Assembly (NCBI GenBank): GCA_947630325.1
Contig: CANRHB010000008.1
Span: 1 to 64,000 of the forward strand
DNA: 64,000 bases
Direction of reading: 5' to 3'
Source: an uncultured Clostridia bacterium
Lineage (GTDB): Bacteria > Bacillota > Clostridia > Christensenellales > Borkfalkiaceae
Each line of letters begins with the position of its first letter. The first letter of the stretch is position 1. The position numbers and the translations under genes were made by a program. A model generated the notes under the pieces. The model was not told the origin of the DNA. It worked only from the letters and a program-made list of their open reading frames with translations, and made no database searches. This document shows, one piece after another, positions 2,295 to 27,238 of the stretch.

Positions 2295-3167
2295 TTATCT
2301 TCTCTTGCCGCGGAAGAACACCGCGAGCGTGCCCGCGCCCGAATGAGTGCCGATGACACTTCCGATTTGGTTGACGTAAATTTTTCTCTCGCCGAACGCC
2401 TCTTTGAGGAGAGAGATGAGGTAATTCACGTCCTCCTCGCAGTCGCCGTGACTGATGAAAATGGGGTCGTCGTGGTCGAGGATCTGCAGTTCCCGCATGT
2501 GCTCCACCAGCGCGGAGATGGACTTCTTCCTGCCCATCGCTTTCCCGATGGCGATCAAATGCCCCTCGCTGTCCACATGCAAAACGGGTTTGATCTTGAG
2601 CATCGTGCCGATGACCGCAGTGGTCGCGGAAACCCTTCCTCCCCTCTTCAAGTGGAACAGATTGTCCACGGTAAAGTAGTGGCAGATGTGCTGTTTGAGC
2701 GCTTCGGCGTATTCGAACGTCTCCTCGATACTTGCGCCCGTGTCCGCCTTTTTGACGATATAATCGACGAACAGCCCCTCGCCCAAGGAGGCGCAGAGGG
2801 AGTCCGTCACCATGATCTTGCGATTCGGATATTGCTTGCCGAGTTCCCGCGCCGCAAGCAAATAGCTGTTGTACGTTCCCGAAAGCCCCGAGGAAAAGGA
2901 CGCAACGAGCACGTCGTTCCCCTCTGCCAAAATGGGCTCTAAGCCCCGCTTTGCCTGCTCGGGAGAGACTTGAAAGGTGGTGGGCATGGAGCCCTCTCTC
3001 AAACGGGCGTAAAAGTCCTTCACGTCCATGTGTTCGCCGTCCTCTCCCTCATAGAGAACGCCGTCCATGTTGAAGCCGAGACGGATGGGCACAACTTTAT
3101 GTTCTACATAATATTCTTCCCAAAGATCGGAAGCGGTATCTGTGACAATGACAAACTTTCTCTGCAT
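2295..3167 (-). CDS. degV: DegV-family fatty-acid-binding protein
   Basis: 290 residues. DegV proteins bind a fatty acid and present it to the fatty acid kinase FakA for phospholipid synthesis. Visible signatures are the N-terminal VIVTDTASDL, the STTFQVSP-like segment TTFQVSPEQ, ASFSSGLSGTYNS in the lipid-binding cleft, VTDSLCASLGEG, and LKRGGRVSATTAVIGTMLKIKPVL. Length is usual for the family. The start at 3167 follows a GGGGGG site; the longer frame upstream covers the promoter and is not coding. It is transcribed on its own from a TTGACA-17-TATAAT promoter. No fakA partner is in the window. Confidence 0.93.
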   Translation of the reverse strand: MQRKFVIVTDTASDLWEEYYVEHKVVPIRLGFNMDGVLYEGEDGEHMDVKDFYARLREGSMPTTFQVSPEQAKRGLEPILAEGNDVLVASFSSGLSGTYNSYLLAARELGKQYPNRKIMVTDSLCASLGEGLFVDYIVKKADTGASIEETFEYAEALKQHICHYFTVDNLFHLKRGGRVSATTAVIGTMLKIKPVLHVDSEGHLIAIGKAMGRKKSISALVEHMRELQILDHDDPIFISHGDCEEDVNYLISLLKEAFGERKIYVNQIGSVIGTHSGAGTLAVFFRGKRR

Positions 3168-3212
3168 AATTTCCCCCCTTCTCATGCGGAGATCTGCGGT
3201 ATTCTTTTGCTT

Positions 3213-3241
3213 ATTATACACGAACGATTTTCGGTTGTCAA
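3213..3241 (-). promoter_or_regulatory. Promoter of degV
   Basis: Minus strand: TTGACA (3236-3241), 17-base spacer, TATAAT (3213-3218), 46 bases before the start codon. Confidence 0.85.
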
Positions 3242-3253
3242 TCTTTTTAGCGA

Positions 3254-3481
3254 TTATTTTAGCGTGGTAAAATTTTTGACGTGCGCCGCGCGGAAGGAGA
3301 CCGTGACGTCGGTGCACCCCTTCCCCTTTTTGATGTTGAGGGAGACGTTGTTCGTGTCGAAATATTCCTTGGCGATGTGGGTAAAATCGGCAAGGGCGGC
3401 GGCGCGGGTCGCGTCGTTGATTTCCTCCTTGTCGTCGCTGAGCATCTGTTTTAATCTCAATTTGGTGATCTCTCTTTTCAT
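3254..3481 (-). CDS. minE: MinE-like cell division topological specificity factor
   Basis: 75 residues, directly after minD (12 bp gap). MinE releases MinD from the membrane and drives its oscillation, placing the division septum at mid-cell. RLKQMLSDDKEE matches the MinD-binding helix of MinE (RLKLVL.HDR), followed by a helical stretch ending IAKEYFDTNN and a beta-rich tail (VSLNIKKG, DVTVSF). The N-terminal membrane-binding part is short compared with Escherichia coli MinE (88 residues). The sequence is divergent, so position beside minD carries much of the call. No minC is in the window. Confidence 0.72.
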   Translation of the reverse strand: MKREITKLRLKQMLSDDKEEINDATRAAALADFTHIAKEYFDTNNVSLNIKKGKGCTDVTVSFRAAHVKNFTTLK

Positions 3482-9723: not shown

Positions 9724-9975
9724 TTAGACATCTTGAGCGTTCTCGGCGACTGCCTCCTCGCTTTCGGTTTCCGTCCCCTCTTGCTCGGCGCCATCGGGCG
9801 CAGAAGTTTCAAACGTTGAAGTTCCGGACGCCGAAGTCGCAGCTTCCTCTTTCTTCTTTGCTCTCAGTTTGGAAATGACCCAGATCGAAAGCACGACGAT
9901 CCCGACAAAGCACGCCGCCGCAACGACGCTTACAGTGATCAAAACAGCGAATTCCGCTTTGCTTATCAACAACAT
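9724..9975 (-). CDS. Small membrane protein after the giant surface protein
   Basis: 83 residues, starting 3 bp after the stop of the giant surface protein; the ribosome site AGGAG lies inside that gene's end. One membrane helix at about 9-34 (FAVLITVSVVAAACFVGIVV), then KLRAKKKEEA as a cytoplasmic positive patch and a Ser/Thr/Glu-rich acidic tail. Not recognised. Tight coupling suggests a partner or localiser for the surface protein. Confidence 0.6.
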   Translation of the reverse strand: MLLISKAEFAVLITVSVVAAACFVGIVVLSIWVISKLRAKKKEEAATSASGTSTFETSAPDGAEQEGTETESEEAVAENAQDV

Positions 9976-12900: not shown

Positions 12901-15087
12901 GTGGATGCCGTCCTCTTCAACAGTGTAAACATCGCCGCTTGCTTCAACGGGATTGTTCTGAAGATAGAACGTAAAGTTTTTGATGTTGTCTTTGAATTCT
13001 TTCGTTCTGTCTATATTGAGTTGCCCTGTTACTGTTTGGATGCCGCTGAGGATCTCTTTTTCAAAGGCATCTTTCGTATGGGCGACGTCGCCGTACTCCA
13101 CGCCCTTTCCAAAGCCCGTTTTTGCCGCATCGGTCAGAGTGATGTTCAGCTTTTCTTCCAAAATGTGGATCTCGAAATAGTCGTAGTCCGTTTTGTGGTT
13201 GCCCTCGGTGTCCTCCGCCTTGAAATACACGACGTAGTGCATCGGCTCTTGGGCGGTCTTATCGGTGAGTTTATCGTAATCCTGCCACTCTGTGGAATCC
13301 TGCCCGCTTTTTAGGTCTGTAAGATATTTATCTATCGTTTGTTGATTGTAGTTCTCTTCCTCGTACTTTTTTACGATATACTGTATCTTGAGTTTGGCTA
13401 TGGTTTCATCGTACCACGAGACATCCTTCCAACTGATAGGGAATTTTTTATCGGTCGGGTCGGGCAGTTTGAGCGCGATCGGCTCCATACTCAAGCTGTA
13501 AACGATGTCCTGCCGCTTTTCGAGTTTCCCGTTATTGAACGGCTCCGGCAACCCGTTGTTGAAAATCACCCTCATATTGTCGGGCACGACTTTATATGTA
13601 ACGGTGATCTCATCAGCGCCGCCCTCCTTCCATGTGAGGGCCGAATTCGGCTTGACCTTCAGTTGGTAATCGCCAACCCGGTCCGCGGTGATCGTTTTTT
13701 TATCTGCGTCCCACCAACTTGTGTCGCCGCTTTCATTGGCGGGGGCGACGTCCACCATGTCGGTATCTACGATCTCCCAAGTCACACCCTTGGGGGAGTA
13801 AGTCTTTGTGTCGCCCTTCCAACTTTCTTTATCGAGTATCGCAGTGCGCAAGGCGGCAGACAGATTGAAGTGTATCGCAGGGCGCACCCCGCAGCTGTCT
13901 TTGTCCGACGAGCCGTTGCTCACAGAAACATAATTGTGATTGCCGGAAGCGTCGAGGAAGTACGCACGATCCGCACGGTAGGCGTCGCCGGAGCGGAGCC
14001 AGCAATAGCCCTTCCCGACGCCGCTATTTGCGCTTCTGAGAGGCGCATCGGTATCCCACATGCCGTCGCCGTTCCCCTTTACGCTACCATTGGTCATGCC
14101 CGTTTCCGTCAGAGAAGGAAGCCAGAGGTAGTCGTCTTTCCACGCATCGTATGCCGTTTCGCCGTTTCCCTTATTGCTGTAGTCCATGTTTTCGTACCAC
14201 TGGCTCTCTTTCTTTCCACTGCTGTCGCCGCCGCTGTTCGGCTTTGACGGTTCAGAGGAAAAATCGCTTCCGCTCGGCGTACCGTATGCGTCGTTAGGGA
14301 AATAATAGAAATAATTAGCTGTATAGCCTGATTCTTGTTGTTGCGGCTCTCCGTAGATCGACAGCATCGTGTCCCTGTCGTATTCTGTTTCCTGATACCC
14401 GACTTCGGAGGGCTTGGCGAGATATGACGTCAAACTATTATCCACGCTATCTATCGTAAAGCGGGCATATTGATTGCCGCCGTCTTGGCTGTGTTTTTTC
14501 AGTTCCACCCTCTGGGTGAGGACGTCTATTTCGGTACACTTCCCGCCCGCGTTCAAAGTCTTCACGCGAATCTTGCTCGTGGAATACATGTTCGAGGGAT
14601 AGTCCTCCTTATCGGGATCTTTGTCGGACCAAAAGCCCGAATAGGTTGCGGCATCACCCGCCGTAAGCGTATCCGCCGAACGCCACAAATCGAGGATGAT
14701 ATCGCCCGCCGTTGTGTTCCCTGCGGTCGTTTTCGCCGTTGTAAGGTACACGGCGTCCCACTTCATGCCGCCGAAATACACCGAAACGTTTTTTCCGTCG
14801 TTCTGAGAGCGAAAATCTGCGGAAGTCCTTTTACTTTGCGCCGCTGTCGTCAGGGCGCTATACGACGATTCTCCCGTGAGAGCTTTGATGAGGGCCATGA
14901 TGTTGTCGCCGTTAAACGATTTGGCTTCATCGATGTAGAGCTCCTCGACCGTCACCCATTGATCGTCTCCGCCGCGCGCCGCGTCTGCCTCCCTGTTCGG
15001 CAACAGAGCTGTAGCCGCGCCGGCGGCAAAAATCATCGCCGCCGCAAGCGCAAGCCCTGCGGTGAGTTTTTTCCTACCAATTCTCAT
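9979..15087 (-). CDS. Giant surface protein with DUF6273-like and MBG repeat domains
   Basis: 1702 residues. The start at 15087 follows AAGGGAG and gives a signal peptide (KK, then LTAGLALAAAMIFAAGAATA). Residues about 50-412 form a DUF6273/lectin-like domain with YCWLRSGDAYRADRAYFLD and CGVRPAIHFNLS. About 420-1150 are Ig-like and MBG-like beta domains. An Asp/Gly-rich linker (GGDDGGDDGDDDDDD) lies near 1160, then five roughly 72-residue MBG-type repeats (VKYDGKTHSLAIKGTL, VTYEGNGKTE, GVYTVTA) to about 1540. A membrane helix (VPAICIVSGLLVLMLIATAV) and KKKNNKGE end the protein; there is no LPXTG sortase signal. Likely an anchored adhesin or carbohydrate-binding wall protein. Expression probably switches through the G tract in its promoter. 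Confidence 0.88.
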   Translation of the reverse strand: MRIGRKKLTAGLALAAAMIFAAGAATALLPNREADAARGGDDQWVTVEELYIDEAKSFNGDNIMALIKALTGESSYSALTTAAQSKRTSADFRSQNDGKNVSVYFGGMKWDAVYLTTAKTTAGNTTAGDIILDLWRSADTLTAGDAATYSGFWSDKDPDKEDYPSNMYSTSKIRVKTLNAGGKCTEIDVLTQRVELKKHSQDGGNQYARFTIDSVDNSLTSYLAKPSEVGYQETEYDRDTMLSIYGEPQQQESGYTANYFYYFPNDAYGTPSGSDFSSEPSKPNSGGDSSGKKESQWYENMDYSNKGNGETAYDAWKDDYLWLPSLTETGMTNGSVKGNGDGMWDTDAPLRSANSGVGKGYCWLRSGDAYRADRAYFLDASGNHNYVSVSNGSSDKDSCGVRPAIHFNLSAALRTAILDKESWKGDTKTYSPKGVTWEIVDTDMVDVAPANESGDTSWWDADKKTITADRVGDYQLKVKPNSALTWKEGGADEITVTYKVVPDNMRVIFNNGLPEPFNNGKLEKRQDIVYSLSMEPIALKLPDPTDKKFPISWKDVSWYDETIAKLKIQYIVKKYEEENYNQQTIDKYLTDLKSGQDSTEWQDYDKLTDKTAQEPMHYVVYFKAEDTEGNHKTDYDYFEIHILEEKLNITLTDAAKTGFGKGVEYGDVAHTKDAFEKEILSGIQTVTGQLNIDRTKEFKDNIKNFTFYLQNNPVEASGDVYTVEEDGIHKNSSEKVDNLPLGTYYLDVAAKDQDASKYLKLEWSGGRPSFTVSKREIKVTLSFEQRATYGEAHTDWVTATASRATEGATGTWYAQNEADGETDFHIFVQSYSLQGTKGGALTSPHPNATTPADTYTVTPTWTNGNYNVQFADEQGGATFEYTINKSQLDLPSLKETAFLYTGADLRNSVKAVLDNYVAEAMKVEFYAQNDGTGDALTEIKDAGAYYVKVTLDSNYEWTSGETELYLKFMVVDRSGGFIATAADVEATYGDTGDALRPTVSGVPDRGNVYYFYTYEGIGDTVYPVSTHAPVNVGEYLVTVAVVYMGDGNSDPFIVTATAKLTIIPRELSFSLDPTEGTGGLVKAVFKNSSGETVALAANDYTLSYSLNGVAVESMTVAGEYTITVTLVGDAAKNNTLANNTAVYKLTQGVTGGGDDGGDDGDDDDDDNNLELILFSDLTVEYDGEEHSILVDGNLPSGVTVTYEGNQKTEPGVYSVTAIFKNAENTEIARKTATLTITKKKYDMSGVKFEDKTFQYDGAAHEILIEGNLPSGVHVSYSGNGRTEAGVYTVTATFTVDDTAHYEVPASMTANLTIEGSEHRLHGITFESETVKYDGKTHSLAIKGTLESGVSVTYEGNGKTEPGTYLVTASFSDASGTFATMTAMLTITKATYNMSGVKFEDKTFQYDGKSHEILIQGNLPAGVQVSYSGNGRTEAGVYTVTATFTFEDTEHYEAIAPMTATLTIEEGGHDLAGITFESETVKYDGKTHSLAIKGTLGEGITVTYEGNGKTDVGVYTVTAIFSDNNGEFARKQATLTILRTQFNGRIEGSFDYDPANPDLIVEFADGIDPTWEVRIEKSQTVQKYDRVGEKEVVLAAYTLKFYKNGVEVPFDGEVKVRLRAPRELRKTVFNLFREGDGKIEAMEFTQDGQYAMFTAHGTSTYIFTHPYTSLVPAICIVSGLLVLMLIATAVLAVVYKKKNNKGE

Positions 15088-15185: not shown

Positions 15186-15215
15186 ATTATAGCACCCCCC
15201 CCCCCCGTCTGTCAA
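15186..15215 (-). promoter_or_regulatory. Candidate phase-variable promoter with a G12 spacer tract
   Basis: Minus strand: consensus TTGACA (15210-15215) and TATAAT (15186-15191) are 18 bases apart; 12 of these 18 are a single run of G (C on the plus strand, 15195-15206). One base lost would give the optimal 17. It is the only homopolymer of this length I see in the window. Predicted transcription start about 15179, 92 bases before the start codon. Confidence 0.85.
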
Positions 15216-15242
15216 GTACTTAAAATGAATTTTATCAAATCT

Positions 15243-15278
15243 TAACAAATCCTAACAACTTCCTAATAACTTCTAACA
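15243..15278. promoter_or_regulatory. Four phased TAACA-type direct repeats upstream of the G-tract promoter
   Basis: Plus strand TAACA at 15243, TAACA at 15253, TAATA at 15264 and TAACA at 15274, spaced 10, 11 and 10 bases. The pattern and the TTAACA core resemble PhoB/PhoP boxes of OmpR-type regulators. They lie 28 bases upstream of the -35 box. Confidence 0.5.
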
Positions 15279-15289
15279 TTTCCAATCAA

Positions 15290-15770
15290 TTTTGTGCCCC
15301 CGTGGAAGGGAAAAAGGACATAACAAAACCCCCTCCGTGGGAGGGGCAAAGACCATAACAAAACCCCCTCCGTGGCAGGGGCAAAGACCATAACAAAACC
15401 CCCTCCGTGGGAGGGGGGTAGGGGGGTGGGTGCGTTCTAAATTACGTCACCCTGAGCTTGTCGAAGGGTGTCCGCATTATAATAAGGACATTCCTCGACT
15501 GCGCTCGGAATGACGTAATTTTAATGCGGTAGAGATTTCTCGACAAGCTCGGAATGACAGTTTAGAATGGTGCCCACCCCCTTGATCCCCCTCCAATGGA
15601 GGGGGTTGAAATAAGGTAGAGATGTCTCCACTTCGCTCGACATGACATTTTAGGAATGGCGTTTCGCATATGACCTGCCCCCTTTGAAGGGGGCGGGTGG
15701 CGAGCGAAGCGAGACAGGTGGGGGTTCTAATTCTATGAGGGTTCTTATTCTATGGCGGTCCTTATTCCGA
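15290..15770. repeat. Intergenic repeat block before the TtcA-like gene
   Basis: No gene. Three near-identical tandem units of about 36 bp (CATAACAAAACCCCCTCCGTGG..., 15319-15420) followed by GTCACCCTGAG...TCGAAGGGTGTCC (15446), GACATTCCTCGAC...GGAATGACG, and further palindromes to 15660, then a CCCCCTTTGAAGGGGGCGGG unit with GGCGAGCGAAGCGAGACAG (15679-15725). No hairpin cassette here. Confidence 0.75.
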
Positions 15771-23619: not shown

Positions 23620-24839
23620 TACAGTTCCACCCCATTTTGCTTTAAGAGTTCGCGCGCGCTGTCCACGCTGTCCACCCCCGTCTTGTTCTTGACGGGCGCA
23701 AATTCGTGTTCGCGCACCACTTCATAGGGGAGACAACTCCCCATGAGTTTGATCATATCGAGAATGAGGGTCTCGAACTTATATCCGTTGACCTCCTCGG
23801 GGCGGACAAGTTCTCCCGCTTCATTCAAGTGCGGCACCTTCTTTTTGACGACGTGCACGGGAATGCGCTTTCCCGCGATCTCTTCGAGTTTCTTCGCCTC
23901 GAAGAGATAGTTGAGAATGACCCCGTGGCGATATAAAAGCCTCCCCTCTTTGTCCCGCGCCATTGCCATGTCCTCGGAGAGTTCATAGTATTCGACGACG
24001 GCGGGGAGCCCGTTTTCGAGGCAAAGCACCCCCACCTTCTCGTGCGGTTCCGCCTTGGAGACGACCTTCGCCCCGCTCTTCTTTCCGCTTAAAATGGTCG
24101 CGCCGACAAAGGCGGGGTCGGCGATGCGTTGCAGGACGTTGTCCACCGCGAACACGTTGATCCACTCCACCGCGGGGAATTCCTTCATTATCCCCGTGCG
24201 CGCGAGGGAGGAGTACCACCCCCCGTTGCCGTTGGGAGAGAGCGCCAGCCTGCCCTTCTCTTCGAGGAAGAGTTTGCCCTCAAAGTCCACGGCGGGCGCC
24301 ATATCCTGCGTAAAGAAGCGCACGAATTCGCGCGGATAGCCGAAAAAGCCGTGCTCCTCCAAAAAATCCTTGGTCTCGGCGTCGTTTTTGTCGCTCGTCA
24401 TGATGAAAAGCGGCACAAACGCCCCCGCATGGCTTGTCACTTCCAAGAGGTTTTTGATGAGGCATTCGAAGATATATAGGGGGTGGGTAAGCCCGATGTT
24501 GTATGCTCCCTTGGGCGCGTCCGAGCCGAGCCGCGTCCCCTGCCCGCCTGCAAGCAGTACCGCCGCGACCTTGCCCTCCTTGATCGCCTCTTCCCCTACT
24601 TTACGGAAAATCTCGCGGTCGCGCGCGATCTCCGAAAGGGAAATCCCCTCAATAGGCTCGATCTTCCCCTTTCCGCTCAGATCCTCTGGGTGTTCCCAAA
24701 GCCCGAGCTGTTCCCAATCGACCGCTTCGGCCTGTGCGGCGAGAGAATGTTTCTCCTCCTCGCCAAGTTCTCCCCAGAAGCGGAGAACGTGTTCCTGTCC
24801 GTGTTTGCGCAAGGTGCGCGCCAATTCCTCATATGTCAT
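23619..24839 (-). CDS. UDP-sugar pyrophosphorylase (UDPGP/UAP family)
   Basis: 406 residues. Members make UDP-GlcNAc, UDP-GalNAc or UDP-hexose from UTP and the sugar 1-phosphate. The nucleotide-binding motif LLAGGQGTRLGSDAPKG is at about residues 95-111, followed by FIMTSDKND, SPNGNGGWYSSL and FAVDNVLQR, the eukaryote-type UAP pattern rather than bacterial GalU or GlmU. Start at 24839 overlaps the GH36 stop by 11 bp, so translation is coupled. Linked to an alpha-galactosidase, it could charge galactose 1-phosphate in a UTP-dependent Leloir-like step; that is inference, since no galactokinase is here. Confidence 0.86.
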   Translation of the reverse strand: MTYEELARTLRKHGQEHVLRFWGELGEEEKHSLAAQAEAVDWEQLGLWEHPEDLSGKGKIEPIEGISLSEIARDREIFRKVGEEAIKEGKVAAVLLAGGQGTRLGSDAPKGAYNIGLTHPLYIFECLIKNLLEVTSHAGAFVPLFIMTSDKNDAETKDFLEEHGFFGYPREFVRFFTQDMAPAVDFEGKLFLEEKGRLALSPNGNGGWYSSLARTGIMKEFPAVEWINVFAVDNVLQRIADPAFVGATILSGKKSGAKVVSKAEPHEKVGVLCLENGLPAVVEYYELSEDMAMARDKEGRLLYRHGVILNYLFEAKKLEEIAGKRIPVHVVKKKVPHLNEAGELVRPEEVNGYKFETLILDMIKLMGSCLPYEVVREHEFAPVKNKTGVDSVDSARELLKQNGVEL

Positions 24840-26889
24840 GTCTCTTCTCCAAGAGAAACGCCCCCGCCGTGTACGGCTTCCCCGCAATGCGGAGGGTCTC
24901 GTTTCGTATCGTATAAGAAAGATCGGTATAGACGTCGGAAAGCCCGTATTCGCCGAGCGGGAGTTTCACCGCCCCCTCGCATTCGAGGAAATGCACGATG
25001 AGAAGCCGCTTTTCGCCGAAGTCCTTGATGTAGACCTGCCTGCCCGTGGGCGCGCGGTAATATTCGACGGTGCTGTCCAACACACGCACGTCGCCATAGC
25101 GCACCACGTCCTTGATTTTTTCGTAAAATTTCAACCCCTCGCCGATGAGGGCGATCTTTTCGGGCGGAACTTTGTGGATGTCCCCCGAGAGGCAAATTCT
25201 TCCCATCATCGCGGCGCAGAGGGAGTAGACGGTGCGGGAATCGCTCTCCCCCTCCCGAATGACCGCCCAGATCTGCGACTGCCGCGCGGGAACGGTAAGC
25301 GAGACATTCGCCGCCACGAGGGGAATTTCGGCGCACTCGTGCGCGTCCGAAAAGGAGCACATCGAAACTTTGCTCATGCGGAGCGGCTCGATGCGGCTCC
25401 CGCCCGAGGCGCAGTTTTCGATGATGAGATCGGGCACGGCCTCTTTGAGCCTGTCGAGATAGTTGATGCTCTCCTCGGCGACCAGCCTTCCCCCCTCGCC
25501 GAGGGACTCTGCGCCGTCACAGCCGAGCCCAAAGGTGTCGTTGTAGTCGATCTTGATGTATCCGAACCCGTTTTCGCGCAAGAAGTCGAGCATCTTTGCG
25601 CGGAGATAGCTCTGCACCTCGGGAAGGCGCAAATCGAGGAACCGCCTGTTTTTGGAGGTGATGACCTTTCCGTCCTTTTTGAGGAGGGCCGCTTCGCAGG
25701 AAAAGCTCTCGCTGTCCCGCCCGACGTTTTCGAACTCGAACCAGACGCCCGCGCGCTTTCCCGCGGCGCCTATCTTTTCCACGACCTTTTTGATACCGTC
25801 GGGGAAGAGTTTTTTGCTCTCGTTCCAATCGCCGATGGCGTTGCCCCACGCCTTGTTGTCGGGCTTGTACCAGCCGCAGTCGATGACGAATTCCTCAATG
25901 GGCAAATCTTTTATGGCTTTGAGAATGCGGGTGATGTTGCGCTCGGAGGGGTTTCCCCACGTCGTGCAGTACTCGTTGAACAAAACGGGCATTCCCTCTT
26001 CCCGTTTGGGAACCGAAAGTCGGCTGTCCGCCTCGTGCACGAGGGCATTGCAGACGCCGAGTAGCGTCTTTCCCACCGTGAAGCGCGCCGCATGGGTCGT
26101 AAAACTCCCGCCCGCGGGGATATTCTTGCGCCAATGGGCGAACTCGAAGTCGCCGAGGCCCCCCGAGAGCGCGCACGTTTCCTTTTCCTGATACACTTCG
26201 AGCTGCCACGAGAAGGGAGCCTCGATCTGCACCCCCCAGCACACTCCCCTCTCGCCATCCTCGATGGCCGCAAAGGGGAAATAGCCGCGGTTGGGCATGG
26301 AACCGACCTGCCCCCACTTCTCGACTTTCACGCCATAGCGCGCCCAACTCATATCCAGCCCGAGGCGGGAAAAGGGCTCGCTTTTGAGGCGGCATTCCCG
26401 CGACCATGCGCTCGTCATGCGGTGGAGGGTAAGCCCCGCCGTATTCCCGCCGCCGCCCGCGATCCCGCTCAGAGAAAAACTCGAAAGATGCTCGAGAAGT
26501 TTGGGACCGTGGGTGTGGTTTTCATAGCGGACGCTCGTCGTGAACACCCCCGTCGCGCGGTCATAGCTTAAACGGTGGACATAGTCGTTTCCCTCGCCAT
26601 CCGTAAGGTAGGTGTTGAGGGCGCCGCCCATAAATTGGGTCTGCCGCACGATTTTGAGGAGGGTCGAGCGGCTGTTGCGCATGGTAACGCCCCGCGTGTA
26701 GTCCACGAGGCTCTCGTCTCCCGAAAAGGCGACCTGCACCAAGCTGTCCAAATGCAGGTCCTTGGGGTCTACCTCCGCGCTTGCGGGATAGACGGCAAAG
26801 CCCACCGTCGTCTGCTTGGGGTGCCCCTCCACGGGAGTTTCGGCAAAGTAAACGGCGGTATCACCGTAATCGTACCGTTTGAAAAACAT
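24829..26889 (-). CDS. Alpha-galactosidase, family GH36
   Basis: 686 residues, start after AAAGGA. It removes alpha-galactosyl groups from raffinose-type or galactomannan oligomers. N-terminal beta-sandwich to about 290, then the barrel: EEFVIDCGWYKPDNKAWG, GVWFEFENVG, IKIDYND with the nucleophile Asp (about residue 448), ENCASGGSRIE, and SFSDAHE with the acid/base Asp (about 513). The C-terminal beta domain closes at LLEKRHDI. No signal peptide, so cytoplasmic. GH36 is favoured over GH27 and GH31 by these motifs and the size. Confidence 0.92.
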   Translation of the reverse strand: MFFKRYDYGDTAVYFAETPVEGHPKQTTVGFAVYPASAEVDPKDLHLDSLVQVAFSGDESLVDYTRGVTMRNSRSTLLKIVRQTQFMGGALNTYLTDGEGNDYVHRLSYDRATGVFTTSVRYENHTHGPKLLEHLSSFSLSGIAGGGGNTAGLTLHRMTSAWSRECRLKSEPFSRLGLDMSWARYGVKVEKWGQVGSMPNRGYFPFAAIEDGERGVCWGVQIEAPFSWQLEVYQEKETCALSGGLGDFEFAHWRKNIPAGGSFTTHAARFTVGKTLLGVCNALVHEADSRLSVPKREEGMPVLFNEYCTTWGNPSERNITRILKAIKDLPIEEFVIDCGWYKPDNKAWGNAIGDWNESKKLFPDGIKKVVEKIGAAGKRAGVWFEFENVGRDSESFSCEAALLKKDGKVITSKNRRFLDLRLPEVQSYLRAKMLDFLRENGFGYIKIDYNDTFGLGCDGAESLGEGGRLVAEESINYLDRLKEAVPDLIIENCASGGSRIEPLRMSKVSMCSFSDAHECAEIPLVAANVSLTVPARQSQIWAVIREGESDSRTVYSLCAAMMGRICLSGDIHKVPPEKIALIGEGLKFYEKIKDVVRYGDVRVLDSTVEYYRAPTGRQVYIKDFGEKRLLIVHFLECEGAVKLPLGEYGLSDVYTDLSYTIRNETLRIAGKPYTAGAFLLEKRHDI

Positions 26890-26890
26890 T

Positions 26891-27238
26891 TTAATCCTTT
26901 GTTGCGAGGCGCTCGATGGTGATGGTCGCCGCCGCAAATTTGTCGCAAAAGTCGGAGAGGGTAATATCTCTTCTGCCGATCACATCGAGGATCTTTCGGA
27001 ACTCTTCGTTGACCGCGACGGAGCGTTGGTCCAAAAAGTTGCGGTTAAGGCTCACTTCCTGCCCATGCAGGAGGGCGTCGGCATAATCGTACACCTCTTG
27101 ATAGCTATAGTTGAAATCGAATTTTGTGTTTCCCGCGGCGTCCAGCCGATAATATTTAGCGGGAACGGGGCAAGCGAGAAAGTCCCGCAAAGCCGTTTTG
27201 TCCCGCTCGGAGAGGGAAACGACCTTTTTATACGCCAT
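26891..27238 (-). CDS. Small protein of unknown function between araA and GH36
   Basis: 115 residues; a 1-bp gap to the GH36 start. AGGAGG precedes the ATG. The middle (KFDFNYSYQEVYDYADALL) and the Arg/Asp-rich C-terminus suggest an alpha-helical protein. ALRDFLACPVPAKYYRLDA includes a lone Cys. Not recognised. Conserved placement in a sugar operon could mean a small regulator or enzyme partner, but nothing proves it. Confidence 0.6.
   Translation of the reverse strand: MAYKKVVSLSERDKTALRDFLACPVPAKYYRLDAAGNTKFDFNYSYQEVYDYADALLHGQEVSLNRNFLDQRSVAVNEEFRKILDVIGRRDITLSDFCDKFAAATITIERLATKD

Follow-up and report, generated by a model that had tools for sequence, protein, structure and literature searches.

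A poly-G tract within a promoter spacer as a probable phase-variable switch of a surface-protein gene in an uncultured Clostridia bacterium

Promoter switching driven by strand slippage is known chiefly from pathogens, for example Neisseria and Treponema, and in Clostridioides difficile pdcB and pdcC are invertible promoters (invertons). The tract behind the sortase-pilus slippage switch of Bifidobacterium breve reportedly lies in coding sequence. As described in one report (PMC9187656), that switch is based on replication slippage in a gut commensal and acts on a surface structure; the kind of target and the proposed slippage are common to it and to the locus considered here, but the tract of the latter lies in a promoter spacer. 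Two promoters are treated in another article (PMC7864442): porA of Neisseria meningitidis, a surface-protein gene, and tp0126 of Treponema pallidum each carry poly-G between -35 and -10, with an optimal spacer of 17 for porA and best transcription at 17 for tp0126. The same article gives 7-11, mostly 9, as the tract length of tprL in vivo; there transcription starts four bases past the poly-G, and this tract therefore does not simply lie in the spacer (PMC7864442).

How does the present locus compare? The window, by which we mean the whole analysed stretch of 64,000 nt, contains a perfect sigma-70/SigA-type promoter in which a run of 12 G makes up two thirds of the spacer, located ahead of a gene for a secreted, membrane-anchored-looking protein (Table 1). 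A sequence-only reading had described TTGACA and TATAAT boxes on the minus strand with 12 of 18 intervening bases in one G run, and this description was confirmed at its exact coordinates; the extended -10 element (TGn) is an addition to it. Together the boxes agree with the consensus at 12 of 12 positions, the mononucleotide run lies wholly between them as in porA and tp0126, and 98 nt separate the -10 box from the ATG of the gene. With 12 G the spacer is 18 nt and with 11 G it would be 17, the approximate optimum. The likeness to porA extends to a tract entirely within the spacer, an optimum of 17 and a surface-protein target. However, porA is a single porin gene of a Gram-negative pathogen, whereas here a Clostridia genus with many, mostly lipoprotein-like targets is concerned; the effect of length is reported there and predicted here; and an upstream box common to the window gene and two homologues is present here. 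The Treponema tp0126 and tpr systems belong to another phylum and to other gene families, although the tprL range is near the 7-12 (mode 9) found among the 114 promoters collected below.

Table 1. Positions of the promoter elements, their surroundings, the genes in the window and one set of loci from another genome
Feature	Position	Strand	Remarks
-35 box TTGACA	15210..15215	-	6/6 consensus
GAC	15209-15207	-	between -35 and G run
G12 tract	15195..15206	-	entirely within the -35/-10 spacer (15192-15209, 18 nt)
Extended -10, TGC + TATAAT	15186..15194	-	TATAAT 6/6 at 15191-15186
Upstream box GTTAGGATTTGTTAAG	15241..15256	-	25 nt before -35
About four TTAACA-like direct repeats, CTTAACAAATC CTAACAACTTC CTAATAACTTC TAACATTTCC	15241..15283	+	11-bp period; by eye
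REP-like G/C-rich palindromes CCCCCTCCGTGGGAGGGG	15327..15607		upstream of promoter
Target gene, 1702 aa	9979..15087	-	ATG at 15087
83-aa ORF	9724..9975	-	membrane-helix-like N terminus; begins 3 nt after the target gene stop codon
Poly-G promoters of Candidatus Ancillula, genome G135	L073, L089, L101, L108, L121, L149, L170 (JAIRWY01)		

The target protein begins with a signal-peptide-like N terminus, continues with about 890 conserved N-terminal residues followed by MBG-type repeats, and ends in a membrane helix and a KKK tail, features that mark it, by sequence alone, as a surface or secreted product. The length of 1702 residues and the anchoring proposed earlier both stand, with the anchor specified as a C-terminal membrane helix plus lysine tail; no LPXTG motif was found in the protein by eye. 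MBG_3 was the sole Pfam family above cut-off on the protein (P0001). DUF6273 was matched by four of seven N-terminal segments (best E 9.7e-5), and the window protein's own segment gave no match to it at E up to 1. No paralogue was found within the same genome. The short downstream ORF is probably on the same transcript as the target gene, in a presumed operon.

Is a tract of this length expected in such a place? It is the sole run of at least nine in the window, and of 200 sequences simulated from the window with a first-order Markov model only 1.5% had a G or C run of at least 12. The genome (1.97 Mb in 40 contigs) has 27 distinct G runs of at least nine, this one being the longest. TTGAC-N-TATAAT matches number 155 in this genome (reversed control, 5); among the 100 of these that were listed, the spacer measures 17 in 76 cases, 18 in 11 and 16-18 in 95, and apart from the G12 promoter none has more than 5 G in a row. 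The G12 promoter is therefore an outlier within its genome. It is conceivable that it is an ordinary constitutive promoter with a neutral G run in its spacer, perhaps debris of REP-like G/C palindromes. Such palindromes lie just upstream, many other long G runs of the genome fall within REP-like CCCCCTCC...GGAGGGGG repeats, G7 matches in the window do not exceed those in shuffles (10 overlapping, versus a mean of 14.6), and no second poly-G promoter was found in the genome, where a relaxed pattern gave one match (backward controls, 2).

The genus at large argues against a neutral run, which we consider unlikely. Among 61 genus genomes, the pattern TTGACN{1,10}G7N{1,10}TATAAT occurs 154 times, spread over 46 of them, the window's own included, with up to 21 per genome; its reversed form has no match. 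Runs of this kind sit in the spacer and hardly ever beside the boxes: G7 at 1-10 nt after the -10 box occurs in none of 62 genomes, and at 1-10 nt before the -35 box in one of 62. Together with the rank of G12 as the longest run of its genome, these controls place a tract of such length in a spacer beyond chance, and we infer that selection accounts for its placement. Among 102 tracts of G8 or longer, from partly overlapping loci (841 kb) that had been selected because they hold poly-G promoters, 21 lay outside exact promoters, and one of these 21 was promoter-like under a relaxed definition. Beyond the genus, the same pattern occurs in 3 of the 40 genomes taken from elsewhere in the order, and a G8 version in 2 of 289 genomes outside the genus (class sample of 291).

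A different picture would be that the G run serves as a recognition element, for a regulator or through a structure of the non-template strand, rather than as a length switch. When C7 replaced G7 in the spacer pattern, 12 matches in 12 of 62 genomes remained, six of which are one repeated sequence (one of these six in the window's genome). This preference for G over C is strong, it puts the G nearly always on the non-template strand, and it is not predicted by slippage alone. Yet the position of the run varies in a manner unlike that of a fixed site: it may begin at any point between -1 and +9 after the -35 box, and it ends 0-10 nt before the -10 box. Spacer lengths, moreover, are widely scattered, as a length switch predicts, and we give recognition quite a slim chance.

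This scatter emerged from 111 loci yielding 114 poly-G promoters, that of the window included, which we compared with 51 ordinary promoters of the same loci; 48 of these had a spacer of 13-20, and an ORF followed in 47 of the 48. Poly-G spacers (n = 114) span 13-20 with a mean of 16.9 and a standard deviation of 1.83, and measure 17 in 12 cases; ordinary spacers (n = 48) have a standard deviation of 0.65 and measure 17 in 35 (Levene p 1e-15). The G runs are 7 long in 6 promoters, 8 in 22, 9 in 60, 10 in 23, 11 in 2 and 12 in 1. Downstream ORFs were secreted or lipoprotein-like for 92 of 114 poly-G promoters versus 18 of 47 controls (Fisher p 5e-7), and a lipobox was called in 75 of 114 versus 7 of 47 (p 3e-9), with signal peptides and lipoboxes called by crude rules of our own and with promoters of related genomes counted as independent in the tests. 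The differences in spacers and targets are large despite these crude rules and this kinship, and the association with secreted or lipoprotein-like genes is a further point against a neutral run. Among the 22 products that fail the secretion rule are, by eye, ABC transporters, zinc-ribbon proteins and metabolic enzymes. An InlB-like motif was present in 12 of 114 targets versus 1 of 47 (p 0.11), and we do not claim repeats as a feature common to the targets.

Because many surface-protein genes of the genus are preceded by promoters built in this way, the window promoter is very probably a random up/down switch, and we put the probability that it is a phase-variable promoter of the spacer-length type, operated by slippage, at about 0.82. 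The candidate phase-variable promoter of the sequence-only reading thus gains support from the placement of G runs in the genus, from broad spacers around 17 and from the bias towards secreted or lipoprotein-like targets, as well as from the homologues described next: that reading was right on the sequence and probably also on the function, the switch being of a known kind that is here broadly used in a genus. An assembly or sequencing artefact, such as a homopolymer miscount or the poly-G of two-colour chemistry, is very improbable. The count of 12 comes from a single draft assembly, in 40 contigs, and the exact length may be off by one or more, but the architecture recurs in three quarters of the genus genomes (46/61) and is also found in Pumilibacter muris CLA-AA-M08 (cov_364 in the contig title) and in the complete chromosome of Treponema ruminis.

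Six genus genomes encode homologues of the target, 64-67% identical across about the first 890 residues. In two of them (G019 and G047) the promoter carries G8 and G9 in spacers of 14 and 15, respectively, and the remaining spacer is unlike that of the window; a G run kept while its surroundings changed is not what a neutral run would suggest. In two others, inverted-repeat arms are present: 24 nt at 100% identity and 150 nt apart in G059 (L192 4161-4358), and 40 nt at 80% and 123 nt apart in G033 (L194 4277-4479). Between the arms lies a promoter-like site that points away from the gene, with 9 of 12 (G059) and 10 of 12 (G033) consensus positions, and no gene-directed promoter was found there at the same threshold. 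Judged by these features, both loci look like invertible promoters set to off, which recalls the invertons in that the same kind of gene would be served by another on/off device; within 62 genomes, the exact arm pattern is confined to these two pairs. The window's promoter differs in having no flanking arms: no inverted repeats were found on its two sides, and since the REP-like palindromes lie upstream and do not flank it, no invertible cassette is present. The remaining homologues are cut by a contig end (G029) or show neither device clearly (G141). Counting the window's, five of the seven family members are thus built like one or the other of two well-known types of random switch, and this strongly suggests that the gene family has been selected to be switched. 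Comparison of the window with eight pieces of 12-20 kb from the six homologue loci, with ORFs called mechanically, brought out no common gene neighbourhood, and we therefore speak of homologues rather than positional orthologues. Besides the target gene, only two window ORFs were matched at homologue loci, namely 2295-3317 by an ORF in G141 (36%, E 1.5e-53, in the opposite orientation relative to the gene) and 24829-26937 by one in G033 (20%, E 1e-16).

Tract-length change among relatives and copies offers evidence that is indirect and mixed, the comparison material being one genome per species. Of 11 near-identical promoter pairs, four differ in spacer length, three of these in the number of G: G8 versus G9 (G001 and G055), G9 versus G10 (within G019) and G8 versus G10 (within G025), the G025 copies combining G8 with a spacer of 13 and G10 with a spacer of 17 and differing also by CG outside the run. 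In the fourth (L227 and L231, from G001 and G055) the spacers differ by an A, with G9 in both. The other seven pairs, six among four G029 copies and one in G002, have equal spacers; another G001/G055 pair (L049 and L050) combines G8 versus G9 with a spacer of 19 in both; and 19 of 21 promoter strings in G002 have G8. Slippage is therefore not evident everywhere. String sets within one genome, which represent different loci rather than one locus across cells, range from 6 of 7 with G9 in Pumilibacter muris through 10 strings with G7-G10 in one Faecalibacterium genome to 25 similar strings of a Candidatus Ancillula sp. genome that run from G9 to G15 and differ mainly in G number (Table 1).

How might the tract control expression? 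We envision, by analogy with porA and tp0126, that strand slippage during replication adds or removes G one at a time, and that each step would shift the distance between the -35 and -10 boxes together with their helical phase. Spacers of 16-18 would then permit good transcription and other lengths less, such that cells of one clone would come to differ in expression level. In the assembled state, with a spacer of 18, the promoter should be active, and one G less would bring it to 17, as in most promoters of the genome. The conserved box 25 nt ahead of the -35 could contribute regulated activation as well. Its counterpart in the G019 and G047 homologues, GTTAAGATTTGTTAAG, lies at exactly the same distance, and the window's version differs by one mismatch; it is a possible activator site. 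The box is restricted to the three promoters of the window's protein family, that is, 3 of 114 poly-G promoters at up to 4 mismatches; within 60 nt upstream, it was found neither in the other 111 (up to 4 mismatches) nor in the 51 controls (up to 5). A single upstream box common to all poly-G promoters was accordingly rejected. The TTAACA-like direct repeats in this region presumably resemble PhoP/OmpR-type boxes. The benefit of switching is likely to be diversification of the surface, be it against phage or host antibody, or for attachment.

To what extent is the device used elsewhere? Scanning named genomes with a G9 pattern gave at least 120 stretches, and the matches listed include many MAGs labelled Clostridia or Bacilli, Candidatus Ancillula, Treponema ruminis, Streptobacillus notomytis, Saccharibacteria and others; the poly-G device therefore arose or spread outside the genus too. 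The named and genus sets overlap, since G029 equals G111 and G003 equals G113 in match strings and coordinates, an overlap that involves the GenBank MAGs Lapin-012__bin71 and Lapin-023__bin67 (labelled uncultured Clostridia bacterium). Forty genomes behind some of the named matches, selected as matching, hold 1 to 39 matches each, with 7 in Pumilibacter muris. In 120 named stretches among the matches listed, ORFs were secreted or lipoprotein-like by the same rule in 70 of 124 cases versus 8 of 40, and poly-G spacers span 13-23. That such promoters are rarely reported in Clostridia, as had been stated, is perhaps true of print, but they are common in this genus (46 of 61 genomes) and scattered elsewhere. 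We found no report of poly-G spacer promoters in Clostridia in the open-licence literature searched, and the accessible portions of PMC7864442, PMC2831843 and PMC11868660 contain nothing on them.

With moderate confidence, we propose that the genus possesses a transcriptional phasome in which up to about twenty lipoprotein or surface genes per genome are set by independent poly-G spacer dials, whose G almost always lies on the non-template strand, and in which the dial has been exchanged in evolution for an invertible promoter at homologous genes; similar dials would have arisen in other gut Bacillota, Ancillula, Treponema, Streptobacillus and Saccharibacteria. Slippage promoters would represent a recurrent, clade-specific source of variation of surface lipoproteins in uncultured Clostridia, and homologous genes show what appears to be a swap between them and promoter inversion. 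Surveys of gut metagenomes that consider inverted repeats only would miss poly-G switches. The arrangement suggests bet-hedged surface expression in commensals, and this would bear on phage sensitivity and host recognition.

Three further arrangements were observed alongside these promoters. Six loci from MAGs labelled Bacilli or Clostridia (L099, L109, L131, L146, L164 and L169) have poly-G promoters before type IV pilin-like ORFs (GFTxxE after lysines). At L002 (G000:C1:155030 region), a G10 run sits right at an ATG that has a good ribosome-binding site, and in the assembly the long frame downstream (419 codons, methyltransferase-like by eye) does not share the reading frame of that ATG, an arrangement as in translational slippage switches. 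At L010 (G000:C2:128232 region), G10 occupies the ribosome-binding position of a Phd/YefM-type antitoxin gene (PF02604, E 1.1e-7) with a consensus promoter ahead, and gain or loss of G would change the distance to the ATG.
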